Source: a virus
Strand: one strand, 5' to 3'
Length of the DNA stretch: 44,933 nt
IMG/VR virus record: IMGVR_UViG_3300021957_000076
Coordinates: 1-44,933 of that record
Shown here: in pieces, positions 24,853 to 44,874 of the stretch
Position numbering within the stretch: the first letter of the stretch is position 1
Layout of the letters: every line of letters starts with the position of its first letter
The notes under the pieces: model-generated
The model's input: the letters and a program-made list of their open reading frames with translations, nothing else
Databases searched by the model: none
What the model was told of the DNA's origin: nothing
Program-made: the position numbers and the translations under genes

Positions 24853-26460
24853 TCATGATTCTTGAGTTAATGTTTTTTCTAGAATGCGTTCGAAGTCTTT
24901 TTGACTCGTTGAGGACACTTCAACATCCAAGTCAAAGAATGCCAAGAAGTGTTGGATACTTTGTGTTGCGACTTTGATCATCTTATCCACATATTTAACC
25001 CAAAGATTTTTTAGCATTGTCTTCACTGAAGAAACGAATGAAGTTGCTGAATCTAGAAGACCTTCTTGAAGCATAGATGTTTTGAGTTCTGCCTCTTCGG
25101 TGAACATTTCCATATAGTCTTGGAAAGTAAAACCCTCTTCGACTCCTGCTAGTTCTAAATTAGGATCAACTAATGCTAGGTTTCCTTTTTCACCACCATC
25201 TACGTTTTTAAGTTGTGCGTTGAAATCTTTGTGATAACCTTTGAAGTTCTTTTCTTCGTCTTCACCACTTACACCCAATCTAATCTCTGACCACGATTGT
25301 CCAGGATGACCAGATTTGAACGCAAAGTCAAATTCATATACATTAGTCAATTGATCTAATACTTCGTCATTGATTTCTTTCACTATTGAAAAACCATCGG
25401 TAGGAGAGGTGTACATGATATGATTGGCTGCATTAATGGATTCTTCACCAAACTTCAAATTACCTGTAATTGCTTCCTTGAGGATTTCTTTCTTAAACAT
25501 CTTCATGTGTTCATTTTTGTTAAAGAAATTTTGAAAGATAGATGTCAATTCCACGTGTGCGTCTTGGTAACTTTTAACCTTAACATATTCAGAGAAATCA
25601 TCATCTAAAGACTTAAGAAGTAGTTCTCTATTCTTAAGGGCATTTTTTTGTTGCCCAGGTCTTAAACCATTCAATGCCTCACTTGGTATCTTTTTCAAAA
25701 AGTAAGATTCTCCTTGCTTATCGAAGAGTTCAAGATTCACTTGATGTCCATCTCCAACGAATTGATCTAGACCTTGCCATTCCGCTTCGAAAGCCAATGC
25801 GTTATTTATTTTATCAATATCTTTGATGGACTTTTTACTAGATACACGGATCAACGATGTTCCTTTCTCTTTGAATGTACCATAAAGTTCATCGAAACTT
25901 TCTTTTAGCATACTATCCATAGTCTTATATACGGTAGTCGATACCAAACTTAGATACTCTTGGTTCTTACCAGATAGAACCTTAGATCCACCCATGTTCT
26001 TATAAGAGATCTTTTTTGTTTCGGTCTCGTCGTAGAAGTCGGTCTTTGGTTGGGATGCTCTAGCACGACCATCTGCTCCATCTTCTTTTTTATATTTAAA
26101 CCATTCTTCTGATGATGAGATCTTCTTGTCTCCCAAGAAGGTGAGTGGTGAGTTTATGGTGTCCTCTAATTTTTTAGTTAGTTGGTTAACGAAAACTCTT
26201 AGTTTTTTGCTAATGCCACTACTATTCTTTTCTTTCTTCAAATGTACTTTATTGAAGTTGACTATTTGTTTAATCTCTTTTTCTGCTTTGGGGTCTTCAA
26301 CATCCTCACCCTTCAAGATACTATCGATAGTAGCGTCGATGTCTCTACCTTTGCTTAAGAATGTGTTGTAGATATAAGGAATCAAAACTTCTAATTTATC
26401 ATCGAACTTAGGGTCTTGGGTTTTAGTTTCCCTTTCGTTTAAATATGTCTTGAAACTCAT
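24853..26460 (-). CDS. Large protein with capsid-targeting-type tag
   Basis: 535 residues. Begins MSFKTYLNERE; LNE at 7-9 fits a T4-type prohead-protease site (L/I-x-E). No known domain is recognised in the body (visible segments include KNMGGSKVLSGKNQEYL, LNGLRPGQQKNALKNREL and SGHPGQSWSEIRLG). A second LQEGLL-type site lies near residue 467 before a helical C-terminus. I infer an internal capsid protein, possibly ejected, whose size suggests an enzyme. Confidence 0.65.
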   Translation of the reverse strand: MSFKTYLNERETKTQDPKFDDKLEVLIPYIYNTFLSKGRDIDATIDSILKGEDVEDPKAEKEIKQIVNFNKVHLKKEKNSSGISKKLRVFVNQLTKKLEDTINSPLTFLGDKKISSSEEWFKYKKEDGADGRARASQPKTDFYDETETKKISYKNMGGSKVLSGKNQEYLSLVSTTVYKTMDSMLKESFDELYGTFKEKGTSLIRVSSKKSIKDIDKINNALAFEAEWQGLDQFVGDGHQVNLELFDKQGESYFLKKIPSEALNGLRPGQQKNALKNRELLLKSLDDDFSEYVKVKSYQDAHVELTSIFQNFFNKNEHMKMFKKEILKEAITGNLKFGEESINAANHIMYTSPTDGFSIVKEINDEVLDQLTNVYEFDFAFKSGHPGQSWSEIRLGVSGEDEEKNFKGYHKDFNAQLKNVDGGEKGNLALVDPNLELAGVEEGFTFQDYMEMFTEEAELKTSMLQEGLLDSATSFVSSVKTMLKNLWVKYVDKMIKVATQSIQHFLAFFDLDVEVSSTSQKDFERILEKTLTQES

Positions 26461-26879
26461 TATACGTTCTCCTCTTCTTCGTCGTCTTGTTCTGGTGCCA
26501 CTAACTCGTCGTCTTCTGTGGGTTCTTCTATGGGTGCTACCACTTCGTCATCCCCATCTTCATCGTCTGCTACATTAGGATCAGGTTCTTCATCAGAGAG
26601 TTTTTCTTTCGTGGACTTAATAATCTCAGTAAATTCATATTCATCAAGACTAATGCTTTCCTCACTATAGAAAGAAACCACATCATCTTTAAAGTCTTCG
26701 ACCACATCTACTGTTTGATTATTGGAATAGTCGGTGTCATCAGCCATTTTGCCAAGCAACCAACCTCTAAAAAGAAACGTTTGTTCTTCTTGGGACAATG
26801 ACTCTTTAGCCCCTTCATCTTCATGCGCTATAAAATCGCCATTGAAGTCTTCTACTAACTTAACAAAGTCACCATTCAT
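26460..26879 (-). CDS. Tagged acidic small protein
   Basis: Start at 26879 (MNGDFVKLVEDFN), seven bases from GGGAG; an ATG 3 bases earlier is possible. The tag has LVE at residues 8-10. The remainder is highly acidic, ending in Glu/Asp runs (DDEDGDDEVV). Late box at 26902-26909. Overlaps the next gene by one base. Likely a capsid-internal protein by its tag. Confidence 0.65.
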   Translation of the reverse strand: MNGDFVKLVEDFNGDFIAHEDEGAKESLSQEEQTFLFRGWLLGKMADDTDYSNNQTVDVVEDFKDDVVSFYSEESISLDEYEFTEIIKSTKEKLSDEEPDPNVADDEDGDDEVVAPIEEPTEDDELVAPEQDDEEEENV

Positions 26880-26901
26880 CATTATCTCCCTTGAGTATAG
26901 T

Positions 26902-26909
26902 TATTTATA
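26902..26909 (-). promoter_or_regulatory. T4-type late promoter
   Basis: TATAAATA on the minus strand with GGGAG in the leader. Confidence 0.65.
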
Positions 26910-26931
26910 AACCCTATGACAGAAAATGGGT

Positions 26932-27069
26932 TTACGCCTTGACATCTAAGAACTTGCCCTTATAAGGGTGTTTTACCTCTTCTACTACTTGGTCCCTTTT
27001 TAGACCAACACAACTAGGACTTAGTTTCTCGTCTAGGTTACTTAAGGTGGACGTTTTTTCCAAATTCAT
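26932..27069 (-). CDS. Small protein overlapping the tagged gene (45 aa)
   Basis: ATG at 27069 inside the end of 27038-27460, +1 frame; the product ends with DQVVEEVKHPYKGKFLDVKA. Amino-acid use looks coding, and it fills a gap otherwise empty, but there is no strong ribosome-binding site. It could also be a C-terminal extension reached by frameshifting. Confidence 0.45.
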   Translation of the reverse strand: MNLEKTSTLSNLDEKLSPSCVGLKRDQVVEEVKHPYKGKFLDVKA

Positions 27070-27460
27070 TCTTGATGATGTAAACCATAGAAGGGACTTC
27101 CCATCCTGTTCTCATCTCACACAATGCTTGTACAACATCTTCGTTGCCTTTCTTGTGCTCTGAGACAATGATCCCATTTAACAAAGCACCTGCTAGTTCT
27201 TTGTCTTCCCTACTTTTAAGATCTCTTGCTTTGAGTTTCTTTTGCGAAACCTCTACCATGAAGAACTTTTGGAGTTCTAAGCAAAATACAGGTATCTCTC
27301 CCTTGCCTTCGTTGATTCTCTTCACAAGCTCTTTCTTTTGGTTTAAGACAGAACTTTTAAAGAACTCATCGTATTGTTTGAGATTGATCTTAAAATCAAT
27401 CTTATTAGGTTTGGGTGTTTTGACGGATACTTCTTCCGACAAAAAGTTTTTGAAACTCAC
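27038..27460 (-). CDS. Tagged small protein
   Basis: GTG start 8 bases after GGAG. Begins MSFKNFLSEEV with LSE at residues 7-9, then a Lys/Phe-rich helical body of about 130 residues, including LKQYDEFFKSSVLNQKKELV. Both an early promoter (27487-27514) and a late box (27498-27505, inside the early spacer) lie upstream. Putative capsid-targeted protein; body unrecognised. Confidence 0.65.
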   Translation of the reverse strand: MSFKNFLSEEVSVKTPKPNKIDFKINLKQYDEFFKSSVLNQKKELVKRINEGKGEIPVFCLELQKFFMVEVSQKKLKARDLKSREDKELAGALLNGIIVSEHKKGNEDVVQALCEMRTGWEVPSMVYIIKNEFGKNVHLK

Positions 27461-27486
27461 TGAATCTTCTCCATATTAAAAATACT

Positions 27487-27514
27487 ATTATAATTGTTAT
27501 TTATAGTTTGTCAA
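27487..27514 (-). promoter_or_regulatory. Overlapping early (TTGACA-16-TATAAT) and late (TATAAATA) promoters
   Basis: On the minus strand the late box (27505-27498) sits within the 16-base spacer of a consensus early promoter, so the same site can serve both phases. Confidence 0.7.
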
Positions 27515-27997
27515 ATGCTTCTTTAGTTCTAGAAGGGTAGATTTGGTGTCTGTATGCAAAATACCAATGCCACCTGCTGCCCTCCACTTGTCTATTTTCT
27601 TCTGGGTATCATCAACGAGAATACTAACTGTATCTTCTTTGACGTATAGATGCTTGTCCTTGGCGACGTGAATATTGTCAATCCCTAGTTGTTCGATAAA
27701 CCCCTCTTTCTTTAACCAAAGGTGCTTCCCTTTTTCAGACTTTTGCTCAGAGTCTTGCGTGGGAGCAGTTAAGATGTGTAGGTCTTCGAAGTTGTCTGAT
27801 AGGAATTTCCATAGTTCTTTCCCATCTTCCATCCAAGGCATCGTTTCCCACCATTCAACAGGGAAAGTCTTAGTCACCTTGTAACTCTCATTCCTTGAGA
27901 TAGTTAGGTAATGGTAGCCCATTCGATCTTCGAAATGCCCCTCCCAATTGGTAAGCACCCCATCCATATCACAAGCTAGGAATATTTCTTTGTTCAT
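27497..27997 (-). CDS. HAD-family 5'(3')-deoxyribonucleotidase-like protein
   Basis: 166 residues. CDMDGVLTNWEG at residues 9-20 holds the DxDxV nucleophile motif; ILTAPTQD near 75 is motif II; K at SEKGKHLWLKK and LVDDTQKKIDKW near 128 give motifs III and IV. This is the layout of NT5C-type deoxyribonucleotidases in phages. It would dephosphorylate nucleotides, for example to shape pools with the RNR. Preceded by AAAGGGAG. Confidence 0.8.
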   Translation of the reverse strand: MNKEIFLACDMDGVLTNWEGHFEDRMGYHYLTISRNESYKVTKTFPVEWWETMPWMEDGKELWKFLSDNFEDLHILTAPTQDSEQKSEKGKHLWLKKEGFIEQLGIDNIHVAKDKHLYVKEDTVSILVDDTQKKIDKWRAAGGIGILHTDTKSTLLELKKHLTNYK

Positions 27998-28041
27998 AAA
28001 TTATCTCCCTTTTGTTATATAATAATTATACTGTTAGATAC

Positions 28042-28049
28042 TATAAATA
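28042..28049 (+). promoter_or_regulatory. T4-type late promoter, 5 bases from the ATG
   Basis: TATAAATA, five bases, ATG at 28055; the ATG at 28049 overlaps the box and cannot be in the mRNA. Confidence 0.65.
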
Positions 28050-28054
28050 TGTGT

Positions 28055-28375
28055 ATGGATTATAAACTTTTACTTTGTGAAGAATGCGAGAACGTTGTCT
28101 CTTGTGAGGACATCGACGAACCCACGTTTATTTGCCCTGTTTGTGGTACGATTAATGAACGTGATAGAACCAAGTTCTATAAGGGTTCCTTGACTATATT
28201 TAGTCCCGAAATGAAATGTAAGATTGGTACTGACGAAGACGAAGGTATCATTGGACTTGCTGATGCCGATGAAGACCTTCTCTCCGCACTAACGACTCTT
28301 ACAAAACATGGTTGGTCCATGAGATTCAAGGGTGAACGTTCTGACAGTCTTGACGAAGACGATCTCGAAGACTAA
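28055..28375 (+). CDS. Zinc-ribbon protein
   Basis: Start at 28055 (MDYKLLLCEECENV) because the preceding ATG lies in the promoter. 106 residues. CEEC and CPVC form a zinc ribbon in the first 35 residues, followed by an acidic alpha/beta body. Predicted leaderless late mRNA; overlaps the convergent HNH gene by 4 bases. Role unknown. Confidence 0.7.
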   Translation: MDYKLLLCEECENVVSCEDIDEPTFICPVCGTINERDRTKFYKGSLTIFSPEMKCKIGTDEDEGIIGLADADEDLLSALTTLTKHGWSMRFKGERSDSLDEDDLED

Positions 28376-28953
28376 GAACTTTTTACAAAAGTTTCCCAAG
28401 ACTTCATTCGCTTGCTCTTAGGAACTCTGTAAAGAAGGTTGGTCTCTGGTGAGTACAACCTATGTCTCACCTTCCACCCAATTTCGTTGAGTAGTCTGTC
28501 TCCCTTCTTAGAGTTACATGCACCACAACAAGCAACTACATTGTCATAGGAGTTTCTTCCTCCACGACTTGTAGGTATGACGTGATCGATTGTACGATTG
28601 GCACTTGTGAGTGTCTTGTCGCAGTACCCACACTTATTACCATCTCGTTCAAATACTTTCCTCTTACTAATGTTGAGAGAGGTTCTCTTCTTTTGAAGAG
28701 AGTTAGTGTTAAGGACGATGATCTCTGGGATCATGATCCACAACTTCTCTGAACGCATAGTAGAGTCTACATCTTGAATGTTGTTCTTCTCGACCCATTG
28801 AGTGAAGGTGAATAGTTCGTAAGTCTTAGGGTCCATTGCTTTCCCCTCATCACCAATAAGGTAACCCAGACTCTTCTTCACTCCTTCGACACTCAAAGGT
28901 TGAAAACTCTTGTTCAAAATAAGAGAATACCTTTTACGGTCATTCATATTCAA
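28372..28953 (-). CDS. HNH endonuclease
   Basis: 193 residues. The C-terminal half has the McrA-type HNH core: ERDGNKCGYCDK, IDHVIPTSRGGRNSYDNVV and CCGACNSKKGDR, with both zinc CxxC pairs and the catalytic DH-N-N residues intact. The N-terminal 90 residues resemble the RRSxxLILNKSFQPL-type domain of phage HNH proteins. Likely an active nickase or homing enzyme. Confidence 0.85.
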   Translation of the reverse strand: MNMNDRKRYSLILNKSFQPLSVEGVKKSLGYLIGDEGKAMDPKTYELFTFTQWVEKNNIQDVDSTMRSEKLWIMIPEIIVLNTNSLQKKRTSLNISKRKVFERDGNKCGYCDKTLTSANRTIDHVIPTSRGGRNSYDNVVACCGACNSKKGDRLLNEIGWKVRHRLYSPETNLLYRVPKSKRMKSWETFVKSS

Positions 28954-29197
28954 TCTCCATTTCTTTAAAATTGTGTAATTTGCTTAATGTATTCCATAGT
29001 TCTCTTGCTATTTCAACATTGATGTTTGCGTACTTCTTTTTAGGAACCCCATACATGAGTTCCTTATCCCACACCTGCTTCCTAAAAAGTAGATATGGTT
29101 TTTCTTCAAAGAGAAAGGCAACCTTACAATAACCTGCCTCATTGACCCACTTTATTATAGTTTCTCTCTCCACCCTTCTTCCCAAAAGGCATCCCAC
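28940..29197 (-). CDS. Hypothetical protein, relative of its upstream neighbour
   Basis: 85 residues from ATG 29197; a GTG at 29173 is an alternative. NVEIARELWNTLSK here and HSALAKRVWDAFWEE in 29155-29406 suggest a shared helix, so the two may be relatives. Overlaps the neighbour by 43 bases and the HNH gene by 14. Function unknown. Confidence 0.55.
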   Translation of the reverse strand: MGCLLGRRVERETIIKWVNEAGYCKVAFLFEEKPYLLFRKQVWDKELMYGVPKKKYANINVEIARELWNTLSKLHNFKEMEIEYE

Positions 29198-29406
29198 ACT
29201 CTCTTAGCCAATGCTGAGTGCGTTTTTGATTCTTTTGTTTCTTTAAAATAGCCCATCAAATGCTTAGGGGCTAACTCTTTAGAAAAATTATAATACTGCT
29301 GATTCCATTGCTTCAACCGATGCTTTGGACAAATCAACGTCCTCACATGATCACCATCTCTTGTGGTATAACCACTTCTACTAAACTCAACCGTCATAGG
29401 ATACAT
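29155..29406 (-). CDS. Hypothetical protein (83 aa)
   Basis: ATG behind AAGGAG. Basic, aromatic-rich (VEFSRSGYTTRDGDHVRTL, WNQQYYNFSKEL). Part of a run of small minus-strand genes from 29691 to 28372. Unrecognised. Confidence 0.65.
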   Translation of the reverse strand: MYPMTVEFSRSGYTTRDGDHVRTLICPKHRLKQWNQQYYNFSKELAPKHLMGYFKETKESKTHSALAKRVWDAFWEEGWREKL

Positions 29407-29424
29407 AGTTTCTCCTTAATAAAC

Positions 29425-29691
29425 CTATAGAACTTTAATTTCTTCGTACTTCTCTAATTCTTTTTTTATTTCGCATAACTCATTGTGTGTATAGTTATGT
29501 CTCTTCTCTACATAATATTGTACTCTGTGCTCCCAGTTGTCAAATACTTTTCTGAGAGTTTGTGGTCCTTTACGTTCGACAAATTCCATAAAAGCACCAT
29601 GGAATGCCTCTGGTTCGTAACGAGACGAGACACCATAATGTTCTTCTATGATTTTTAGTTGTAGAAGATTGAGGAATTTAACACGGTTCAT
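29425..29691 (-). CDS. Hypothetical helical protein (88 aa)
   Basis: MNRVKFLNLLQLKIIEEHYG; charged helices to the end. Its ATG lies 6 bases after a late box, so the mRNA is predicted to be leaderless. Unrecognised. Confidence 0.65.
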   Translation of the reverse strand: MNRVKFLNLLQLKIIEEHYGVSSRYEPEAFHGAFMEFVERKGPQTLRKVFDNWEHRVQYYVEKRHNYTHNELCEIKKELEKYEEIKVL

Positions 29692-29775: not shown

Positions 29776-29802
29776 AGAATTATAGATCTCTTATGAGTTT
29801 GT
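29776..29802 (-). promoter_or_regulatory. Early sigma70-like promoter (15-base spacer)
   Basis: TTGACA and TATAAT on the minus strand, spacer one base shorter than the others. Confidence 0.55.
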
Positions 29803-30174
29803 CAAACAAAGTTTTTCGAAATGTTTTTTGATGCCATCCAATGTTTTGGCAAATTCACCTTCATTCATTTCGTGTATATCTATGCAAATGCTGTCTGTTG
29901 TTCTATATGAGTTTGTGTGCTTAACGACATTCACATAGATTGCTCTTATCATACCACGATAGATCTTTTTTCTATAATCCAAAGTCACGATGACTTGAAA
30001 TGTAGTAGGTTTGATAACTAATTCATCGTTAGATTCGAAGTTGATGATGCAAGCATCCTCTGTCTCAGTTACGTCAATGAGTTTGCTCTTAACTGCCTTC
30101 TTGATAACGTCCTCGACTTGCTTACGTTTTTTCTTACCGTCTTCTTCGTCTACTATAAAATCTGCGAAACTCAC
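29791..30174 (-). CDS. Tagged-type small protein
   Basis: GTG start behind AAGGAG. Begins MSFADFIVDEED, close to MSFKNFLSEE and MSFKTYLNE of neighbouring tagged genes, though the cleavage triplet is not a clean L/I-x-E. The body is alpha/beta (DACIINFESNDELVI, FQVIVTLDYRKKIYR). Unrecognised. Probably capsid-internal by family resemblance. Confidence 0.6.
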   Translation of the reverse strand: MSFADFIVDEEDGKKKRKQVEDVIKKAVKSKLIDVTETEDACIINFESNDELVIKPTTFQVIVTLDYRKKIYRGMIRAIYVNVVKHTNSYRTTDSICIDIHEMNEGEFAKTLDGIKKHFEKLCLTNS

Positions 30175-30183: not shown

Positions 30184-30699
30184 TTATGAGTGATCTGACA
30201 CACCAGTGCCACCAAGGGGGTTTTTTGTAGGTATTGATTCTGGACTTTGCCCAGGAACTTCGAAACCTAATTGTATGATAGAATCAATTGCGTCTTTTAG
30301 AAGTGCTTTGTATTGGTCAGGAGTAGCTAGTTCTCCATCCATACTTAGTTCACTTCTCGCTACATAAAGATCTTCTGGGATATTCTCATAACCACTACGT
30401 TCTAAATCACTAACGAAACTATTTGAACCCATTTTACCTGTCTTAGGATTTTTAAGAACAAACCAAGAACTAATTTCATGGTCGATGAATAATATTAGTT
30501 GCTTTCCATCTACATGAGCATCTAGGAAAAATACACCTATGTTTTTTCTTTTGTCGTTTTCTTTATGAGAAAATACAGATGAAGGTACGAATAAAGGGTT
30601 GCCTTTTGAAGTAGAATATTTGTTAATATCCGAACTAAAATCAGAAGGTAGCATAACACTATTGATATTTTCTACTAAGTTGACGTATTCTTGTTTCAT
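30184..30699 (-). CDS. Tagged small protein (MKQEYVNLVEN family)
   Basis: 171 residues beginning MKQEYVNLVENIN, identical for 11 residues to the tag of 30700-31098. LVE at 8-10 is the presumed cleavage site. The body is mixed alpha/beta (GVFFLDAHVDGKQLILFID). Late box at 30717-30724 and SD AAAGGTG. Confidence 0.7.
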   Translation of the reverse strand: MKQEYVNLVENINSVMLPSDFSSDINKYSTSKGNPLFVPSSVFSHKENDKRKNIGVFFLDAHVDGKQLILFIDHEISSWFVLKNPKTGKMGSNSFVSDLERSGYENIPEDLYVARSELSMDGELATPDQYKALLKDAIDSIIQLGFEVPGQSPESIPTKNPLGGTGVSDHS

Positions 30700-31098
30700 T
30701 TATTCACCTTTAGGATTATTTATAAGTTCAAGCAACACATCGCATAGTTGTCTAACAGCCTCTACGTGTTCATTGTCATTCTTGATGTAATCGACTTTAT
30801 CCATCCAAATTTCTTGTGCGTTCTTAAGTGATGCTCCATTGAACTCACCATCAAAACGAAGGATTGCGACTTTCTCTTCAAATTCGACGATCGCTGCTAA
30901 CCCAGTGGGTGCTTTGTTTGCGTCTAATATTTCATAAGCATAACCACCATTACGACCCAATGCTATCACCAATGGACCTGTATGAAGAGGACCACCAGGC
31001 AGTTGTCGTGTATAATTATGAAAGGTGCCTTGAACGGGTGTCAGTGATTCTTTTAGATTATTGACGTTTTCAACCAAATTGACATATTCTTGTTTCAT
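30700..31098 (-). CDS. Tagged small protein (MKQEYVNLVEN family)
   Basis: 132 residues beginning MKQEYVNLVENVN. The body is a small alpha/beta domain (PLVIALGRNGGYAYEIL, EKVAILRFDGEF). The stop TAA is followed directly by the next ATG. Late box at 31122-31129. Putative capsid-targeted protein. Confidence 0.7.
   Translation of the reverse strand: MKQEYVNLVENVNNLKESLTPVQGTFHNYTRQLPGGPLHTGPLVIALGRNGGYAYEILDANKAPTGLAAIVEFEEKVAILRFDGEFNGASLKNAQEIWMDKVDYIKNDNEHVEAVRQLCDVLLELINNPKGE
30717..30724 (-). promoter_or_regulatory. T4-type late promoter
   Basis: TATAAATA on the minus strand before 30184-30699. Confidence 0.6.
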
Positions 31099-32069: not shown

Positions 32070-32474
32070 TTATACGTTTTCTGCTTTTATAATGCCACTA
32101 GAAGTAGCAATGATCCATTTTTTAAACTTGTCTAAATCATTAGGAGCAAAGATCTTCTCTGCGTATGCCTTTAATGTGTCAACGGAATAGTTAGAATCGT
32201 CTTCATTAGAGTTAACGTCTACTCCCATTGCACAAGCAATTCCTTTATTGGTTACTTTGATGCCTTCAGGTTGTTTATCTAAAAGTTTATACTTGAAAAA
32301 CGCCTTAACATCGTCAGAACCAATCTCTAAAGTATCGTCTTCTGTGACAAAAAGATTGTCATTACCCAAGAAGTTTTTCTTGACCATCACTACAAATTTC
32401 TTTCTAATTAATGATGTCTTATCAATCTTAACTTCACTCAAAAGATTTTCAACTAGTTTAACGTATTTTTGCAT
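32070..32474 (-). CDS. Tagged small protein
   Basis: 134 residues beginning MQKYVKLVENLLSE: LVE at 7-9 and a second LSE at 12-14. The body has alpha/beta segments (VVMVKKNFLGNDNLFVTE). Late box at 32500-32507, SD AAAGGC. Capsid-targeting inferred from the tag. Confidence 0.7.
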   Translation of the reverse strand: MQKYVKLVENLLSEVKIDKTSLIRKKFVVMVKKNFLGNDNLFVTEDDTLEIGSDDVKAFFKYKLLDKQPEGIKVTNKGIACAMGVDVNSNEDDSNYSVDTLKAYAEKIFAPNDLDKFKKWIIATSSGIIKAENV

Positions 32475-32597: not shown

Positions 32598-32674
32598 TCG
32601 TGATGGAAGGATTTGCACCTTCGTGTAACTAACTACTCTTTCTACTGCATATGAAACAGAGGAGATACACCACG
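32598..32674 (-). tRNA. tRNA-like, probably Ile(CAT), irregular centre
   Basis: Acceptor CGTGGTG/CATCACG is nearly that of tRNA-Ile(GAT) at 38636, and the T-arm is GAAGG-TGCAAAT-CCTTC. The middle does not fold normally: a hairpin CTGT-TTCATAT-GCAG offers a CAT anticodon, but the D-arm is missing and about 22 bases follow before the T-arm. May be a rearranged Ile2 tRNA or a pseudogene. Confidence 0.5.
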
Positions 32675-32679
32675 TTAAG

Positions 32680-32750
32680 AGAGGATACTGGGTTACGCTC
32701 CCAGAACTTGACCTTGGCAAGGTCATGTGATACTATTTCACCACATCCTC
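32680..32750 (-). tRNA. tRNA-Gly(GCC)
   Basis: Acceptor GAGGATG/TATCCTC, D-arm GTGA-AATAGTA-TCAC, anticodon arm TGACC-TTGCCAA-GGTCA, T-arm CTGGG-AGCGTAA-CCCAG. Discriminator U73 fits Gly. No CCA. Confidence 0.95.
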
Positions 32751-32756
32751 ATAAAG

Positions 32757-32827
32757 TAGTCCGTCAGGGTTACGCTCCCCATCGTTCTCCATGTAAAAGA
32801 GAAATGCTGCTATTACATCAACGGACC
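32757..32827 (-). tRNA. tRNA-Val(TAC)
   Basis: Acceptor GGTCCGT/ACGGACT, D-arm ATGT-AATAGCA-GCAT, anticodon loop TTTACAT, T-loop AGCGTAA. A73. No CCA. Confidence 0.9.
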
Positions 32828-32829
32828 TT

Positions 32830-32908
32830 GTGTTTTTTAGATTCTTTCAACTCTATCATATGACTGTTTTTAGGAAAACACCATCATATGACGAAAAACG
32901 ATAATATA
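32830..32908 (-). other. Intergenic with palindromic repeats
   Basis: Contains ATCATATGA twice and GTTTTTAGGAAAACAC, imperfect inverted repeats that may mark a transcript end between the tRNA-Val gene and 32909-33727. Confidence 0.3.
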
Positions 32909-34530: not shown

Positions 34531-35172
34531 TTAAAATTTTAATTTCCTTCCTTTCTCCCATCCTTTTGATATCCACTGATTAAGTTCTTCAAGAACTACC
34601 ATTTTACTTTGTTTTTTGGCAATATGGTGGACCCAGCATTTACCAAAATTTACATTTTTTTCACCTTTTTGGTGTACTGAATTAGCTTTTCCTATTTTCT
34701 TTTTTGTTTCATTGCTATGTTTTTTCCCATTCCACCAAGATTCATTTTCACTAAAATATAATTTTAATCCATTTGAAACTTTTTCTTGGAATTCTTTTTT
34801 ATATTCTTCGTCTTCTAATAATTTTTTAGTTACTTCTCCTCCTTTTTTTCCGTTGTCGTTTTTATTATTAAGCCCTTGTTTATTAGCGTAGTACCAACTA
34901 CCGCATTTTCCTCCAAGTGCGACATTATATGTATCTAACCTTGAAACAAATTCTTCATTTACTAAATCTTCTTCTATGGAAAACATTTCTTCTTCATTTT
35001 CACAATCAAAAAGTATTTCTTTCTTAAAATGCGCCTCTCCATATTTATTATATGCTCTTTTTAGTAATGTGCCTGACCCCATATAATCATCGTTTTTATC
35101 GTCTGTTTTATGACAACCAATATATATTTTGTTGTTAATAGTGTTCATTATTTTATAAATTAAGTAGTGCAT
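34531..35172 (-). CDS. GIY-YIG homing endonuclease with NUMOD3 repeats
   Basis: 213 residues. The N-terminal YLIYKIMNTINNKIYIGCHK is the GIY-YIG core, followed by YMGSGTLLKRAYNKYG and an E-containing helix. The C-terminal half has NUMOD3-like DNA-binding repeats (GKKHSNETKKKIGKAN). Free-standing, seg-type. It has its own late box and AAGGAG. Inserted between tRNA-Cys and tRNA-Glu, it could promote spread of the tRNA cluster. Confidence 0.9.
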   Translation of the reverse strand: MHYLIYKIMNTINNKIYIGCHKTDDKNDDYMGSGTLLKRAYNKYGEAHFKKEILFDCENEEEMFSIEEDLVNEEFVSRLDTYNVALGGKCGSWYYANKQGLNNKNDNGKKGGEVTKKLLEDEEYKKEFQEKVSNGLKLYFSENESWWNGKKHSNETKKKIGKANSVHQKGEKNVNFGKCWVHHIAKKQSKMVVLEELNQWISKGWEKGRKLKF

Positions 35173-35898: not shown

Positions 35899-36279
35899 TT
35901 AATTATAAGAAATACCTGTATTTTTACCAAGACCTGTTGAAATGCTTTTTGATAAGGAACCACTAGGGTCTTTTCCAAAACTTGAATCCTTGCTTTTCAT
36001 TGAGTTAGTGTAAAGTTCTAATGCTTTAGCCAACTTTTGTTCTTCAGGAGATAATTCAACGTCTTTTTCTCTAAGTACCTTAACTAGAAAAGCAAGAACC
36101 TTTTGAAGGTTGTTGACGATGTACTTTTCAATCGTATCTCCTATGCCCTCATTCACAATAGTGAAAGTGTTTAAATATTCTTCTAGATTATCTGTGCTTT
36201 TCAGACCCTCTAAAAGATATTCAGATGCTTTTTCTAAAAGGTTGGATGATTCTACTAAATTTACATATTCTTGTTTCAT
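35899..36279 (-). CDS. Tagged helical protein (MKQEYVNLVE family)
   Basis: 126 residues beginning MKQEYVNLVESSN. The body is amphipathic helices (VNNLQKVLAFLVKVLREKD) with a Ser/Gly-rich tail. Stop and next start overlap by 4 bases. Capsid targeting inferred from the tag. Confidence 0.7.
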   Translation of the reverse strand: MKQEYVNLVESSNLLEKASEYLLEGLKSTDNLEEYLNTFTIVNEGIGDTIEKYIVNNLQKVLAFLVKVLREKDVELSPEEQKLAKALELYTNSMKSKDSSFGKDPSGSLSKSISTGLGKNTGISYN

Positions 36280-37282: not shown

Positions 37283-37384
37283 GTATTGAGAAGTTTCACC
37301 CCAACCACAACAGGACTATTGGGGAATTTGCCTTGTCCTGCTTTATAACCATCCACAACTTCTCTGATGGTCTTACGCTCTTTT
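37273..37384 (-). pseudogene. Coding remnant between ASCH gene and tRNA-Lys
   Basis: In the -1 frame relative to the ASCH gene an open stretch reads VKERKTIREVVDGYKAG then KFPNSPVVVGVKLLN and stops inside the tRNA-Lys 5' strand. Composition looks protein-coding but no start codon with a ribosome site exists. Either a remnant cut by tRNA insertion or a frameshifted extension of the ASCH protein. Confidence 0.4.
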
Positions 37385-37826
37385 ACTTTATGACTTTAAT
37401 TCCATTTCTTGGAAAATCATAGGGGAATAACTTAGGTTTATCGTACTTTTCTATATCAATAACCATCCACCCATATCTAGGATTCTTATTAGGTCTATTC
37501 TTAAGATCGAATCCGCTATCTTCAGGAACCATATGTAGGTGGCGATCTTTCTCCCACTCTTTAAACCCTATGTCATTTATAGGATAAGTTTTGTCTTCAC
37601 TAAACACCACCTTGCCTATTGTGTATTTCTTTTTCCCTATGTAAGTAACCAACTCAATAGGTTGATCTTTTAGCATAGGGAATTTCTCTATGGAAACACC
37701 TCTTGTCTCAATGGTCTTTTTACCATTGATGATATTCTCTGCGAACTTGGCTCTTTTGTTGTGAACTAAGATAGCATTGTTATCTTCTGCTACTTGCGTT
37801 TCTTCGAAAAATCTTTTAAATGACAT
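37383..37826 (-). CDS. ASCH-domain protein with tag-like N-terminus
   Basis: Start at 37826 (MSFKRFFEETQ), five bases after a late box; the longer form to 37871 would run through tRNA-Arg and is rejected. About 147 residues. The ASCH core has KFAENIINGKKTIETRG, then a beta-barrel with IGKVVFSEDKTYP and YGWMVIDIE. ASCH proteins bind RNA, and some are nucleases or amidohydrolases. The N-terminus resembles the MSFK tag of presumed capsid proteins, but FEE replaces a clean L/I-x-E. Confidence 0.75.
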   Translation of the reverse strand: MSFKRFFEETQVAEDNNAILVHNKRAKFAENIINGKKTIETRGVSIEKFPMLKDQPIELVTYIGKKKYTIGKVVFSEDKTYPINDIGFKEWEKDRHLHMVPEDSGFDLKNRPNKNPRYGWMVIDIEKYDKPKLFPYDFPRNGIKVIK

Positions 37827-40407: not shown

Positions 40408-40433
40408 ATTATTACCTTAAGTTAATGCAATAA

Positions 40434-40441
40434 TATTTATA
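40434..40441 (-). promoter_or_regulatory. T4-type late promoter
   Basis: TATAAATA on the minus strand before 39907-40407. Confidence 0.6.
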
Positions 40442-40447
40442 GTTTAG

Positions 40448-40520
40448 TGGAAACGAAGAGAATCGAACTCTTCCAGAAACCTCGCAAGGGTTTCTCGCCA
40501 GCCTTGGTACATGCGTCCCC
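40448..40520 (-). tRNA. tRNA-Ala(TGC), canonical T-loop
   Basis: Acceptor GGGGACG/CGTTTCC, anticodon arm AAACC-CTTGCGA-GGTTT, T-loop TTCGATT, A73. The D-region (TACCAAGGCTGG) carries GG but forms only a tight hairpin. Confidence 0.85.
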
Positions 40521-40525
40521 AATAA

Positions 40526-40581
40526 CGGATAACATTTTATTTCGCCAAATGAAAGTTTGTTGAAGTTGCTGTTAGTTATCC
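40526..40581 (-). ncRNA. Short Y RNA-like RNA
   Basis: Terminal stem GGATAAC/GTTATCC followed by G, TA-ACAGCAA, and a small hairpin TTTC-ATTTGGC-GAAA. 56 bases, no T-arm. The stop codon of 40576-40806 lies within its 5' stem strand; tRNA-Ala begins 5 bases after its 3' end. Confidence 0.55.
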
Positions 40582-40806
40582 TAAAAGTTTTTTGAAATCG
40601 GGAAGAACTTGCTCAAGACATGTCATTTCTTGAGTGGTAGGTTCATCCCCATTTATTATCTTACGCAGTCTAAAGGTTGCTATACACGTTAGTGCTGCGA
40701 CATCCTCCAAACCATATCCTGTACGATTCATTGCTCTCACCAAAGGATGATCTTCGTCACTTTGAACCTTTATATATTCATTAGGATGGTTTTTCTTTGG
40801 ATGCAT
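40576..40806 (-). CDS. Small HTH (XRE/Cro-like) protein
   Basis: 76 residues. GYGLEDVAALTCIATFRLRK then IINGDEPTTQEMTCLEQVLP follow the helix-turn-helix pattern (turn at AALTCIA, recognition helix FRLRKI). ATG lies six bases after a late box. A late regulator, or a Cro-fold protein with other function. Confidence 0.6.
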   Translation of the reverse strand: MHPKKNHPNEYIKVQSDEDHPLVRAMNRTGYGLEDVAALTCIATFRLRKIINGDEPTTQEMTCLEQVLPDFKKLLG

Positions 40807-40912
40807 AAAAGATATTTATATCTAGGAAGGGGTTTTCCATATACCATTGTATATGCTGTCCCCTCTTCAACGACCAATTAATATCGTCAAAGTCAATTTC
40901 CCCTCCATCATT
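40781..40912 (-). pseudogene. Coding remnant overlapping the HTH gene start
   Basis: An open stretch reads DGGEIDFDDINWSLKRG then QWYMENPFLDINIFYASK and stops at 40781. No ATG/GTG/TTG in frame; an ATT behind GGAGGGG is the only candidate. The late box for the HTH gene lies within it. Probably the 3' remnant of a lost gene. Confidence 0.35.
40813..40820 (-). promoter_or_regulatory. T4-type late promoter, 6 bases from the ATG
   Basis: TATAAATA on the minus strand, ATG at 40806. Confidence 0.6.
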
Positions 40913-40977
40913 TTAAAGGAGAAGAATCCCATCCAAGTGTGAAAATTGACAAAAACACTCTTAAGGGATTAAAAAAA

Positions 40978-41096
40978 CGGATAGCATGTTTCTTGGGCGG
41001 ATGCTCTACCAACTGAGCTACCTTAGCTTTCGCTGCGGGTGAGATTCGAACTCACGACATTCTGCATGGAATAGAAATATTTGCTGTTAACTATCC
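40978..41096 (-). ncRNA. Y RNA-like (YrlA-type) with circularly permuted tRNA module
   Basis: Terminal stem GGATAGT/GCTATCC followed by G and a T-run; TA-ACAGCAA. Inside: anticodon-type arm TTCT-ATTCCATGC-AGAA (CCA possible), TGTC, T-arm GTGAG-TTCGAAT-CTCAC, CCGCAGC-GAAA-GCTAAGG, TA, D-arm GCTC-AGTTGGTA-GAGC, A. Same order, linker and mismatch positions as 36932-37047. It lies 9 bases downstream of tRNA-Trp. A separate normal tRNA-Trp exists, so this RNA is unlikely to be needed for decoding. Confidence 0.7.
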
Positions 41097-41105
41097 TAAA
41101 ATTAG

Positions 41106-41176
41106 CACGCCACCGAGGTTACGCTCCCCGTCTAAAACTTTTGGAAAGTCCTGTGCTACTATTACACTAGTGGCGC
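41106..41176 (-). tRNA. tRNA-Trp(CCA)
   Basis: Acceptor GCGCCAC/GTGGCGT, D-arm GTGT-AATAGTA-GCAC, anticodon arm GGACT-TTCCAAA-AGTTT, T-arm CGGGG-AGCGTAA-CCTCG, G73 as expected. Confidence 0.95.
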
Positions 41177-41179
41177 ATG

Positions 41180-41226
41180 AGGATGGGGAATTCACCTACC
41201 AGAGGTTTCATCCCCATCCTTTTTTA
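41180..41226. other. 9-bp inverted repeat, T-run on plus strand
   Basis: AGGATGGGG / CCCCATCCT with a 23-base loop; six T follow on the plus strand, so it resembles a plus-strand terminator, though no plus-strand gene is present. In minus RNA it would be a long hairpin with an inner ACCT-CTGGT-AGGT. Confidence 0.4.
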
Positions 41227-41242
41227 CAAACATCAATTGTTA

Positions 41243-41323
41243 AAGATCATTTAAGATTTACACCTAACCACGATCTTGTGTTGAAAGAGAAAGATTCCGA
41301 AGAATCTTTCGCCCCGACGATCC
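41243..41323 (-). tRNA. tRNA-like with UUCG-capped hairpin in place of D-arm
   Basis: Acceptor GGATCGT/ATGATCT, T-arm TTAGG-TGTAAAT-CTTAA. The D region is a 9-bp hairpin GAAAGATTC-TTCG-GAATCTTTC with a C(UUCG)G tetraloop. TCTT-TCAACAC-AAGA may be the anticodon arm, but base 33 is C, so the amino acid is uncertain (CAA or AAC). Confidence 0.5.
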
Positions 41324-41348
41324 ATGTGGACGAAAGGTTACTCAAAAG

Positions 41349-41436
41349 TGGAGGCACTCTGATTTGCACAGAGACAGACTTATTTGTACGCGGGGAGTTT
41401 ACAGCTCCTTGGGTTCGCTAAATACCCAGTACCTCC
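41349..41436 (-). tRNA. tRNA-Tyr(GTA)
   Basis: Acceptor GGAGGTA/TGCCTCC, D-arm TGGG-TATTTAGCGAA-CCCA, anticodon arm GGAG-CTGTAAA-CTCC, a ~20-base variable arm, T-arm CTCTG-TGCAAAT-CAGAG, A73. 88 bases as usual for Tyr. Confidence 0.9.
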
Positions 41437-41543
41437 ATATTGTCAAAGAACTTATCTAGTTCTCAGATAATTTAGAAAAGTAAATAAAGAAGATGAAATT
41501 ACCATGGACTCTCATCTTTACAACTAACCAGCGTTTCCACTAC

Positions 41544-41617
41544 ACTCTTCGCACGAACTCGCATCGTGTCTGGACCCAGGCAAGGGCCTGTGCGAACGTC
41601 ATACACTACCCGAAATG
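41544..41617 (-). tRNA. tRNA-like, possible Gly(GCC)
   Basis: Weak acceptor CATTTCG/CGAAGAG, D-stem GTGT/GCAC, anticodon arm GGCCC-TTGCCTG-GGTCC with one mismatch, clear T-arm CACGA-TGCGAGT-TCGTG (G55), U73. Possibly decaying. Confidence 0.45.
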
Positions 41618-41660
41618 TGAAGTTAGTTTTACTTTTCTAAATTGTCAAAGAACAAGAACC

Positions 41661-41688
41661 ATTATAGCAAGGGGTTTAACCTTGTCAA
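41661..41688 (-). promoter_or_regulatory. Early sigma70-like promoter within tRNA array
   Basis: TTGACA, 16 bases, TATAAT on the minus strand, preceded by GAATAGCAT. Confidence 0.8.
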
Positions 41689-41703
41689 ATGCTATTCTTA
41701 AAT

Positions 41704-41883
41704 AATTTAGGAAAATAGGTGTGTTGCTACACCAAAGAGATTCGTCATTTGTCCACTGGGATTTCACCTAGCGTCCAGTATTCGCTCCTTCCTATTACCA
41801 GAAGTTGCCACTTGGTACATGGTGACACTCTCACTCTTTAAAGGATCGCTACCTCTGAGCTAACCTTCCCATTTTCCTAAATT
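41704..41883 (-). ncRNA. Possible structured RNA bounded by 13-bp inverted repeat
   Basis: AATTTAGGAAAAT / ATTTTCCTAAATT form a perfect 13-bp outer stem. On the minus strand the 5' part contains a canonical D-arm-like TTAGCTCAGAGGTAGCGA after GGGAAGG, but no matching 3' acceptor or normal T-arm follows. Promoter at 41924-41951 faces it. Identity unknown. Confidence 0.4.
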
Positions 41884-41923
41884 GTCAAAGAACTAAAACC
41901 ACTCTCTCTAAAGTGGAAGAACC

Positions 41924-41951
41924 ATTCTACTAAGGTTTCCCTGTTTGTCAA
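41924..41951 (-). promoter_or_regulatory. Early sigma70-like promoter within tRNA array
   Basis: TTGACA, 16 bases, TAGAAT on the minus strand. Confidence 0.65.
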
Positions 41952-41966
41952 GTTCTTTTTTTTAAG

Positions 41967-42054
41967 TCGGAGTAGAGGGACTCGAACCCCCGAGGCTATT
42001 AAAAAGCTCCGCACCCCAAATGCGGCCCGATACCAAGCTACGGTCTATACTCCG
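41967..42054 (-). tRNA. tRNA-Pro(TGG), long variable arm
   Basis: Acceptor CGGAGTA/TACTCCG, D-arm CCG-TAGCTTGGTAT-CGG with GG, anticodon arm CCGCA-TTTGGGG-TGCGG, T-arm GGGGG-TTCGAGT-CCCTC, A73. The variable region is about 18 bases and can form a hairpin, which is unusual for Pro. Confidence 0.9.
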
Positions 42055-42092
42055 ATGTTTTGTTTTTGCAATGTTACCCATTGCTAAGAGAC

Positions 42093-42120
42093 ATTATATA
42101 ATGAGTCTCTAGGTTGTCAA
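42093..42120 (-). promoter_or_regulatory. Early sigma70-like promoter within tRNA array
   Basis: TTGACA, 16 bases, TATAAT on the minus strand, before tRNA-Pro. Confidence 0.8.
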
Positions 42121-42146
42121 GAAGTTTTGTAAGATTGTTTTTTTGT

Positions 42147-42185
42147 GGGTCGTTCTTACTTCTTGACAATGTTAAAGAACGACCC
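42147..42185. repeat. 11-bp inverted repeat
   Basis: GGGTCGTTCTT / AAGAACGACCC flank about 17 bases. It overlaps the 3' strand of the Y-like RNA at 42170, so the two pairings are mutually exclusive. Confidence 0.5.
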
Positions 42186-42293
42186 GTGCGAGAGAAATTC
42201 ATAATTATGTTTTCTACTCGCCACGGACCAAGACGGCATAATATCCCCCGTACCGCGATTGGTACATGATTGAGATAGTTGCTGTCCTTTAAC
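42170..42293 (-). ncRNA. Putative Y RNA-like RNA, divergent
   Basis: Minus-strand GTTAAAG-G-ACAGCAA and, 110 bases on, CTTTAAC give a 7-bp terminal stem with the family motif. Inside are GTACC...GGTAC and GCGAG-T-AGAAA...TTTCT-CTCGC hairpins rather than the permuted tRNA. Length is close to the two permuted members. First RNA of the array behind promoter 42342-42369. Confidence 0.4.
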
Positions 42294-42331
42294 TTGCATT
42301 TGAAAATACGACCTTTTTTATTAAGTAACTT

Positions 42332-42369
42332 TATTTATATAAGTATAACACCTAAATCTAGTTTTTCAA
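42332..42369 (-). promoter_or_regulatory. Early and late promoters heading the tRNA array
   Basis: Minus strand: TTGAAA, 16 bases, TATACT (42369-42342), preceded by AAAAATAGCAC; a late box TATAAATA overlaps downstream (42339-42332). Confidence 0.65.
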
Positions 42370-42394
42370 GTGCTATTTTTAATTATTTTTAGAA

Positions 42395-42988
42395 TTAGTC
42401 GAAACGACCATCATATTCGTAATCAGAATAGTCATCAGGTTCGACAAATTCTGACCCCAACTCGTCTTCTATTTGAGCATCGATTCTTTCTATATTTTTA
42501 TTACTAGTCATTAGCAAATCAACAAATTGCTCAAGTTGTGATAGTTCATCGTCAGATACATCTATTTGTATTTTATCAAACATGAAACCTAACTCCCTCA
42601 CACTTCTAAATCCAAATTCTCCATCCTCTGGGTTTCCTGTGTCATAATCAACATTTACACCAAAACCATAATCTGGTGATAATTCAATGTTTAATTCTAC
42701 TCCATCCTCTTGACTGAAGAAGGTGTTACAAACTAACGTTCTTGCTTTATCAAAAGTGTCGATTGTAATAGCTTGTTTGTTTGCGTCGATTAGAGATACG
42801 CCATTTTTAATTAACAAGTTAGCCAAGACTTTGATTTCTTTGCCCTCTACTGAGTTCTCTTCAGAGGTTGCATATACTTTACCTTTCTCGTATGCAGGAT
42901 TATAATCCAACGAATCTGATTCTAAGTCAAATTGGTACTTTCTACGAGAGTTTACTGATTCCACTAAGTTTACGTATTCTTTTTTCAT
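42395..42988 (-). CDS. Tagged acidic protein (MKKEYVNLVE)
   Basis: 197 residues beginning MKKEYVNLVESVN (LVE at 8-10). Acidic body with helices (VKVLANLLIKNGVS-like, LSQLEQFVDLLMTSN) and a Tyr/Asp tail (DDYSDYEYDGRFD). Preceded by AAAGGAA. Capsid targeting inferred. Confidence 0.7.
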   Translation of the reverse strand: MKKEYVNLVESVNSRRKYQFDLESDSLDYNPAYEKGKVYATSEENSVEGKEIKVLANLLIKNGVSLIDANKQAITIDTFDKARTLVCNTFFSQEDGVELNIELSPDYGFGVNVDYDTGNPEDGEFGFRSVRELGFMFDKIQIDVSDDELSQLEQFVDLLMTSNKNIERIDAQIEDELGSEFVEPDDYSDYEYDGRFD

Positions 42989-42998
42989 GATAGTTCCT

Positions 42999-43241
42999 TT
43001 ATATTCCTAGATCCGTGACTTCTTTGTCACCCATAGTAAAGGTTCCATTGATATTGAATACTTTGAAGAAATCTTCCCATTCTTTCTCGTCATCATTGAA
43101 CTTGGCCTTTTGTTCCATTTCACGTTTTCTGGGATCAGAGATAACTTGATGGTATTTTTCCATGTCTTGTTGAGAAGCAAACTCATAATTGAAATTCAAT
43201 GTGTTTGAGTTTTCTACTAGATTAACGAATTCAGATTTCAT
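42999..43241 (-). CDS. Tagged small protein (MKSEFVNLVEN)
   Basis: 80 residues beginning MKSEFVNLVENSN; charged helical body (REMEQKAKFNDDEKEWEDFF). It is adjacent to 43243-43800, sharing its transcript. Capsid targeting inferred from the tag. Confidence 0.7.
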   Translation of the reverse strand: MKSEFVNLVENSNTLNFNYEFASQQDMEKYHQVISDPRKREMEQKAKFNDDEKEWEDFFKVFNINGTFTMGDKEVTDLGI

Positions 43242-43242
43242 G

Positions 43243-43800
43243 TTATTGCTCTTGTGAAGGTTCTGTAGTGGCTTCTGCTTCTTGTTCTGCTTTTCCTACT
43301 GCCAACTCTATCCTTGCTAGTGCTTGCATAGCGCCATCTTGGATGCTTTCGTCTTGGTGGTTAAGTAATGCATCTAATGAGTCTTCCCAAGAACTACCAC
43401 TTGCTGGGTTTCTTTTGCCTTGAGTTAGATACAACAAGCATAGTAATTGCCCACCCAATAGTTTTGCTTTTGTGTCTGCGTGTGTTGTTAGGATGTTAAG
43501 AAGGGGTTTGAGACTCTTTTTATGAATGAATACCTTAGAGAATGCTTTTATTAGTTTCCCATTCTTTTCGTTTTGTTTGAGGAGGTTGTTAGCCTTTGCT
43601 ATAACCTTTGGGTCTCCTTGCTTCATGTCTTCTATTTTATTCTTTATTGTTTCTTTGCCTGCTTCCCACCCTGATTTGAGTACATTGGCAAAATCACTGA
43701 ATTTACCTTCAGTCAAGACATCCTTAGAGTCAAGTGAGTCGAGAAAAGATTCCTCTAGAACCTTCAAGTCTTTTACATAATTAATATATTCGTTTATCAT
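43243..43800 (-). CDS. Helical protein with possible tag
   Basis: 185 residues beginning MINEYINYVKDLKVLEESF; LEE at 15-17 and LTE near 30 are candidate cleavage triplets. The body is HEAT-like helices (LLNILTTHADTKAKLLGGQL, DGAMQALARIELAVGK) with an acidic tail. Late box at 43819-43826. Unrecognised. Confidence 0.65.
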   Translation of the reverse strand: MINEYINYVKDLKVLEESFLDSLDSKDVLTEGKFSDFANVLKSGWEAGKETIKNKIEDMKQGDPKVIAKANNLLKQNEKNGKLIKAFSKVFIHKKSLKPLLNILTTHADTKAKLLGGQLLCLLYLTQGKRNPASGSSWEDSLDALLNHQDESIQDGAMQALARIELAVGKAEQEAEATTEPSQEQ

Positions 43801-43813
43801 AATCTCACCCTTT

Positions 43814-44122
43814 TTAGTTATTTATATCTTCTAATTCGAAATCTTGTTTCTGAAGATAATCCCATATGAGTCTCATTTCTTTTCTTGAAAGTTTATCGAA
43901 CTTTTCTGTGAATTGCTCCCCAACCTCATCTTCGTGGTATAACTTTTGGAGGTAGCCTTTAACAGGTAATTCTAGATAACCCTTTGCTTCTTTATCATAC
44001 CCATGCCAACGTCCCCTCAATACCCACTCGTCGTCTTTGTCAGAGAAATGAACTAAAACATCGGCATAGATGTTATCATTGTTCTCCGCTATCACCTTGA
44101 GTAGCATCTTCTGGTTTTTCAT
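43814..44122 (-). CDS. Hypothetical protein (102 aa)
   Basis: Mixed alpha/beta (ADVLVHFSDKDDEWVLRGRW), no tag. Overlaps the upstream tagged gene by 47 bases; a later start is possible. Unrecognised. Confidence 0.6.
   Translation of the reverse strand: MKNQKMLLKVIAENNDNIYADVLVHFSDKDDEWVLRGRWHGYDKEAKGYLELPVKGYLQKLYHEDEVGEQFTEKFDKLSRKEMRLIWDYLQKQDFELEDINN
43819..43826 (-). promoter_or_regulatory. T4-type late promoter
   Basis: TATAAATA on the minus strand, 18 bases before ATG 43800, with AAAGGGTGAG between. Confidence 0.65.
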
Positions 44123-44459
44123 TCTTTGCCTTTGTCATGAGTTTAACTAAAGACACAAGTGCTTGTTTGGTCTTTACCATATTGTTGCCCTTCTCTCTTT
44201 TATCTAGAAGCTGTGCTTGTTTGACTACTTGAGGAAACTTTGCTCTAAAACGGTTATCACTCAAGTCGTCCATCATTTGTAGGAAGTCCTTTGCTTGTTC
44301 ATCTTGCTTCCCATCATCTTTACCATTGAGAAGAACACCAAGAGCAGTTACTACTTCAAAGAGAAGGTCGTCCAATACATCTATTTTCTCAGCAGGTGTT
44401 TGTGGTTCTTCCTCGTTTGCTTCATTGAGCATTTGGTTGTAAGTATTAAGCCAATCCAT
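44076..44459 (-). CDS. Tagged protein (MDWLNTYNQMLNE)
   Basis: Start at 44459 inside the end of the upstream relative. The tag ends in LNE at residues 11-13. The body shares ALGVLLNGKDDGKQDEQ with ALAVLMNGEDDGDLELD of 44446-44874, so the two are paralogues. Helical, charged. Capsid targeting inferred. Confidence 0.7.
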   Translation of the reverse strand: MDWLNTYNQMLNEANEEEPQTPAEKIDVLDDLLFEVVTALGVLLNGKDDGKQDEQAKDFLQMMDDLSDNRFRAKFPQVVKQAQLLDKREKGNNMVKTKQALVSLVKLMTKAKNEKPEDATQGDSGEQ

Positions 44460-44874
44460 CTTCACTGCCATTGTCTTGAGCTATCTTACCTGCATTTGCT
44501 TCTTGTTCTTTTTGAATTGCTTCTTGTTTCTTCTCTGTTGCTGTATTGAGAAGTTTATAAACATCGTCTCTTAGTTTAAGCAACCTATCCATTTGACCTT
44601 TGGTGGTTTGGTTGTCAATTTGTCCCATTTGATGCGATAGTTGCAAGACTCTTTCATCAAACTTATCACTCATTGCCTGTGCAACATCCAAGAATGCTTG
44701 TACATCAAGTTCCAAGTCACCATCGTCCTCTCCATTCATGAGAACTGCTAGTGCCAAGGAGATAGTATAAAGAGGATCTTGTTGTTGAGTAGGTACTTCA
44801 ACCACTTCTTCTTCTTGCTGTTCAACCTCAACATCTTCGTTGATCATTTTTTTATAAGTATCACGCCAATCCAT
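44446..44874 (-). CDS. Tagged protein (MDWRDTYKKMINE)
   Basis: 142 residues. Tag ending INE at residues 11-13, then a Glu/Val/Gln-rich linker and a helical domain (LALAVLMNGEDDGDLEL). Paralogue of 44076-44459. Late box at 44902-44909. Confidence 0.7.
   Translation of the reverse strand: MDWRDTYKKMINEDVEVEQQEEEVVEVPTQQQDPLYTISLALAVLMNGEDDGDLELDVQAFLDVAQAMSDKFDERVLQLSHQMGQIDNQTTKGQMDRLLKLRDDVYKLLNTATEKKQEAIQKEQEANAGKIAQDNGSEDGLA

Follow-up and report, generated by a model that had tools for sequence, protein, structure and literature searches.

The stretch of DNA analysed here, referred to as the window, is the whole of IMG/VR record IMGVR_UViG_3300021957_000076, a linear viral fragment of 44,933 bases. 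Its minus strand carries a set of late genes, at least 11 and probably 15 judging from their sequences, whose proteins begin with short, alike peptides ending in (L/I)xE (for example MKQEYVNLVEN, MSFKNFLSEE and MDWLNTYNQMLNEA); we refer to these peptides as tags and read them as probable signals for loading into the phage head. The window looks like a piece of a large T4-like phage, encoding 13 tRNAs, a ribonucleotide reductase, a ClpB/ClpC-like ATPase and a DUF2828/vWA protein, and many of its genes are preceded by the T4-type late promoter motif TATAAATA. No close DNA relatives of the window were found among 50,697 phage records.

Tagged genes of the window

Genes are named by their first coordinate, all of the tagged genes lie on the minus strand, and ^ marks the predicted cut point. 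Three tag types can be told apart. Type (a), [YF]V[NK]LVE, has seven members and forms the largest N-terminal cluster (LVE): 42999–43241 (MKSEFVNLVE^N), 42395–42988 (MKKEYVNLVE^S), 35899–36279 (MKQEYVNLVE^S, with a second site, LLE^G, at residues 22–25), 32070–32474 (MQKYVKLVE^N), 30700–31098 and 30184–30699 (both MKQEYVNLVE^N), and 26460–26879 (MNGDFVKLVE^D), whose body is very acidic (isoelectric point, pI, 4.1) and whose start lies a few codons inside the longest open reading frame (ORF). The last four of these have a late promoter. Type (b), MSFK[NT][FY]L[SN]E, is found in two genes with a T4-like pattern, 27038–27460 (MSFKNFLSE^E), which has a GTG start and a late promoter, and 24853–26460 (MSFKTYLNE^R), which encodes 535 amino acids. 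Two variants of this type are probably tagged genes as well: 29791–30174 (MSFADFIVDEE) has a GTG start and an Asp at P1 of the aligned site, and 37383–37826 (MSFKRFFEE) begins at an internal ATG right behind TATAAATA. Type (c), MDWx[ND]TYxxM[LI]NE, is carried by two paralogues, 44446–44874 (MDWRDTYKKMINE^D), with an acidic body and the late promoter 27 nucleotides upstream, and 44076–44459 (MDWLNTYNQMLNE^A), whose start again lies several codons into the longest ORF.

Two other genes, each with a late promoter, are probable members of the set. The first, 43243–43800, begins with MINEYINYVKD..VLTE^G, a diverged form of LVE, and the second, 20685–21926, starts with MGNDMTDMDFFLRNLHEA, has the tag MGNDMTDMDFFLRNLHE^A (LHE^A, residues 15–17) and ends in an acidic C-terminal tail. 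Behind that tail comes SYSMKTYKDLI (20688–20720, minus strand), a C-terminal look-alike of the T4 tag MKTYQEFI. The ten start strings quoted in the initial annotation are all present in minus-strand ORFs, where they correspond to eleven genes, and (L/I)xE does fall at residues 7–13 in all eleven, as it had stated; 20685, 29791, 37383 and 43243 are further tag-like starts beyond its list, being diverged or longer versions.

Excess over chance and selection on the peptide

Alike N-terminal pairs (score of at least 27) numbered 21 in the window, against 1 at residues 31–43 of the same proteins; 200 shuffles gave 0.74 on average and 3 at most. The pattern [FYW]xxLxE, beginning within residues 1–8, is found in 8 ORFs with 0.68 expected, a count that includes 32651–32863, which is probably not a gene, and [FYW]xx[FYMW][LIFV]x[ED] beginning in the same range is found in 5 with 0.58 expected. 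The bodies behind the starts had been described as unrelated, and this holds for the LVE set, where 0 of 21 body pairs are homologous, but not for 44076 and 44446, whose bodies are paralogous (28% identity, E 5e-9).

Selection acts on the tag peptide itself. Among the five genes that start M-K-x-E-[YF]-V-N-L-V-E, silent sites in codons 4–10 are 85% different (pS 0.85) and replacement sites 2% (pN 0.02), so that it is the peptide rather than the DNA that is conserved, and codons 11–20 of the same genes show free divergence. Tag and body would then be evolving apart, with the tag serving as a reusable address that has become fused to many bodies.

The promoters agree with the earlier description of these genes as late. 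Within 60 nucleotides upstream, TATAAATA is found for 9 of the 15 tagged genes compared to 4 of the 34 other minus-strand genes (p 0.001), with a promoter-to-start distance of 17–37 nucleotides in most tagged genes that have it, and several promoter-less tagged genes sit immediately downstream of another tagged gene.

Correspondence with the T4 targeting peptide

In the T4 record, the internal proteins IPII and IPIII share the start MKTYQEFIAE, and gp22, gp67, gp68 and gp23 have (L/I)xE near their starts as well. As reviewed in PMC9026906, the first ten residues of IPIII are sufficient for packaging, with residues 4 and 7 acting in targeting and residues 8 and 10 in processing, and an Asp at residue 10 blocks cutting while leaving packaging unaffected. 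These targeting and processing positions correspond to F3/F6 and L7/E9 in MSFKNFLSE and to F3/Y6 and L7/E9 in MSFKTYLNE. The type (b) tags keep the IPIII spacing and are one residue shorter (F3xx[FY]6-L7xE9); the MSF set has two aromatics with matching spacing, whereas the LVE set has a single aromatic (Y/F) and a spacing to LxE that is one residue shorter. Going by the T4 result, 29791 could be packaged yet remain uncut at this site because it has an Asp at the cut position.

A second genome with the tag

A tag scan of 2.9 million viral contigs in IMG/VR gave only one convincing second genome with the exact tag, IMGVR_UViG_3300021957_000369 (G001; 21.7 kb), which is the nearest relative. Two of its genes are of type (a) (MKQEYVNLVEQ and MKSDFVQLVEN), three further starts resemble type (b) (MKKQEFLKES, MKFSKFFES and MFSEFLNEN), and it encodes a gp21-type Peptidase_S77 (E 1.4e-35), a T4 portal (Portal_T4, E 2.1e-104) and a UvsW-type helicase. 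The body of its MKQEYVNLVEQ gene, at 4528–4956, matches that of 43243 in the window (BLASTP, 34% over 80 amino acids, pairwise E 1e-6). Since the S77 protease, the T4 portal and a tagged homologue of 43243 are found in one genome, the tag appears to accompany T4-type head assembly. A relaxed tag pattern matched 44 stretches in IMG/VR, nearly all of them chance with the exception of G001. The contig L002 (547,943 bases, MLKDLKMKNEYINFVEI) was judged a chance match as a tag carrier, and neither an S77 protease nor gp23 was found there. No relatives of the tagged bodies 24853 and 30700 were found in IMG/VR, and none of 24853 among named phages either.

Tagged genes in other jumbo phages

The S77 protease is also present in Atu_ph07, LR756508, Phosso, CBB and 121Q. 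In Agrobacterium phage Atu_ph07, about 13 genes start with M[KR][WY]xxLxE, mostly in one tandem array, and the core-position genes, probable scaffold and capsid protein have LTE^S, LLE^G, INE^S, INE^D, LLE^G and LLE^G. The scaffold protein is most likely gp214 (NC_042013, 171475–172719), annotated as a Rad50 ATPase, because it comes just ahead of the major capsid protein, begins with METGFEKLLEG and contains (L/I)xE many times. The tagged array gp054–062 falls inside coding sequences (CDS) 31–76, of which 29 proteins were found in virions according to the published report (PMC6102473), a count given for the range as a whole.

LR756508 has about 20 genes starting with M[KR][LF]KxLLxE and about 20 more with a longer start containing IIxEEL. 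The longer tag, MKLTERxLRxIIxEELxxVLxE (LR756508.1, L107–L131), is located at ~140–163, 189–191, 219, 243 and 440 kb, with many copies around the S77 protease, and looks like a second capsid-targeting tag. Pectobacterium phage CBB, for which a virion list of 55 of 554 proteins, obtained by mass spectrometry, has been published (PMC5259590), has LQE^A, LNE^S, LTE^S and LVE^G at the starts of its core, scaffold and capsid proteins. For Phosso no tag excess was seen by the two patterns used; its scaffold-position gene nonetheless starts with MNQGLKELLES.

As for the tagged bodies of these relatives, that of CBB_455 matches ART-PolyVal (E 6e-13) and is absent from the CBB virion list, and one tagged gene of Atu_ph07 has a weak ADP-ribosyltransferase-like match (E 4e-4) that falls short of the curated cut-off. 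Window gene 20685 has homologues among the tagged paralogues of both Atu_ph07 and LR756508. A by-eye suspicion that this 'YRG' family is an ADP-ribosyltransferase was abandoned: its profile gave no such match in PDB or Pfam, and the window copy is without the Arg.

Interpretation and alternatives

We consider it likely, from the sequence evidence above, that the tags act as T4-like capsid-targeting propeptides, cut after (L/I)xE and leading to packaging in the head. Late in infection, the tag would recruit each protein to the prohead core as this grows; cutting behind (L/I)xE by a gp21-type (S77) protease would free the mature protein inside the head, and the freed protein would remain there alongside the packaged DNA. 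Ejection of the tagged proteins into the host is plausible. The initial annotation had predicted a family of packed proteins, and this is favoured by the length of the tags, the aromatics of the MSF set, the (L/I)xE end, the late promoters, the selection on the peptide and the S77 protease and portal in G001; the acidic bodies, however, fit core parts also. Because at least 11 late proteins begin with a peptide like the one that loads T4 proteins into the head, the virus probably packs many different proteins inside its shell.

Several results weigh against this interpretation. The P1′ residue in the window is mostly N, S, D, E or Q, compared to A or G at most T4 sites, and the mature bodies have a pI of 4.1–5.5 in 11 of 15 cases, unlike T4 IPII and IPIII, which are basic (pI 9.6–9.7); the only clearly basic bodies are 27038, 37383 and 43243, so the set does not have the basic character of the small T4 internal proteins. 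Searches of Pfam and PHROG gave no usable domain in any tagged body of the window, and single-sequence structure models of these bodies were poor (mean predicted local distance difference test, pLDDT, 45 and 35) and gave no usable structure. The prohead protease was not found in the 45 kb window, which is a fragment. Lastly, a loose (L/I)xE rule, set before the CBB virion list was inspected, predicted virion proteins weakly: about 32 annotated CBB genes fit it and 7 of these are listed, with a p of ~0.03 that is approximate, as 4–6 rule matches (e.g., records 3905, 16235, 38781 and 302160 plus terminal-repeat copies) were scored absent or omitted without a gene-number lookup. Two of the 7 carry MLPFxRxxxYGN, which is without a constant Glu, and CBB_236 (3,340 amino acids) is maybe a chance match, so the clean support in CBB comes from CBB_214, 254, 256 and 320.

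The alternative that survives best, a real possibility although we doubt it, is that the tags mark substrates of the prohead-core protease and that most of the tagged proteins are scaffold or core parts, chopped and lost, rather than cargo. T4 gp22, gp67 and gp68, which are destroyed or trimmed in the head, have (L/I)xE within 6–21 residues, and in Atu_ph07 the tag is found on the probable scaffold gp214 and on the core-position proteins gp199, gp205, gp206 and gp213. Additionally, the 11 acidic bodies of the window are like core proteins in this respect, and the homologue of 43243 is located in the head-gene region of G001. However, T4-type phages need few core proteins, whereas about 15 tagged genes are found here among tRNAs and enzymes, and the bodies are unconserved, as would be expected of arms-race cargo rather than of a scaffold. 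Part of the tagged set may still be prohead core, because most bodies are acidic, unlike the T4 internal proteins, and T4 core proteins also start with (L/I)xE.

We find it unlikely that the tags are uncleaved docking peptides by which proteins are held on an outer virion component. A tag that is probably of this kind, MLPFxRMxxYGN, is found on kelch, laminin-G or similar proteins, on 11 genes each in CBB (KU574722, 344–355 kb) and 121Q (KM507819, 118–131 kb), and the MLPF-tagged CBB_536, 537, 548, 549 and 551 are in the virion list. It is read as a docking peptide and not a cleaved tag because its Glu is not conserved (6 of 11 in CBB and 0 of 11 in 121Q), whereas [LIVMF]xE is present in all 17 tags tested from the window and G001; (L/I)xE starts are also found on the scaffold and capsid protein of related phages, which argues against docking. 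That the alike starts merely go back to gene beginnings duplicated or recombined in the recent past, with a shared leader and ribosome-binding region and a functionless peptide, is highly improbable: 30184 and 30700 do adjoin, but the upstream DNA of tagged genes is dissimilar, and such copying needs identity of the tags at the DNA level, which is absent, as the peptide is fixed while silent differences are saturated.

Returning to the reading of the tags as head-targeting propeptides, we tentatively suggest that T4-like jumbo phages could have an address code that is specific to each lineage and changes quickly, in which the several tag types of a genome bring dozens of mutually unrelated proteins into a single head for delivery as an arsenal. 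Each tag type may stand for a different site or partner within the prohead core. If this is true, a tag search alone would uncover new anti-defence proteins. The mechanism is already known; to our knowledge, the size of the set and the presence of several tag types per genome have no description for this group in the literature searched. Most proteins of large phages are orphans, and a tag that predicts head cargo from sequence alone would make it possible to list, for testing, those that are packaged and perhaps injected. T4 IPI counters the GmrSD restriction enzyme and T4 Alt acts on RNA polymerase, a precedent that points such cargo to host take-over and counter-defence. The tags of the window would also supply new peptides for targeting proteins into phage heads.

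Other features of the window

The DUF2828/DUF7788 vWA-type protein (phrog_850) is encoded at 15211–16620 on the minus strand, and CBB_183, the DUF2828 protein of phage CBB, is listed in published virion mass spectrometry. In the tRNA region, 34531–35172 (minus strand) has its own late promoter and 44% identity to T4 ORF 71253–71918, and is related to T4 segD of the GIY-YIG homing endonuclease family. On the plus strand, 330–3060 and 3664–5413 hold two sets of three tandem paralogues each, which are probably tail-fibre or surface proteins; one set matches the virion structural protein phrog_10356 and the other is of an unknown family.

Comparison with known systems

The inner-body and ejection proteins of phiKZ and SPN3US are similar to the tagged proteins in having N-terminal propeptides that are removed by a gp21-kind prohead protease with many substrates. 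In SPN3US, several propeptides exceed 100 residues and the known sites include AVE and ALE (PMC5694885), and these phages are only distantly related to T4. In the arrays of Atu_ph07 (MRWEQLTE) and LR756508 (MRLKxLLxE), a lineage-specific N-terminal tag ending in LxE is likewise found on many genes, although many of the tagged genes in those arrays are tandem paralogues whereas the window bodies are mostly unrelated. The ADP-ribosyltransferase-like tagged bodies of relatives (CBB_455 and, weakly, Atu_ph07) parallel T4 Alt. Compared to T4 itself, the window differs in having 11–15 tagged members in 45 kb, where T4 has 4, and in the three or more tag types that a single genome carries. In common with T4 IPI, IPII, IPIII and Alt, which are cut by gp21, the tagged proteins of the window have the N-terminal place of the tag, the aromatic positions (in the MSF set), the (L/I)xE end, unrelated bodies and T4-type late promoters, with a tag of 9–13 amino acids compared to 10 in T4.

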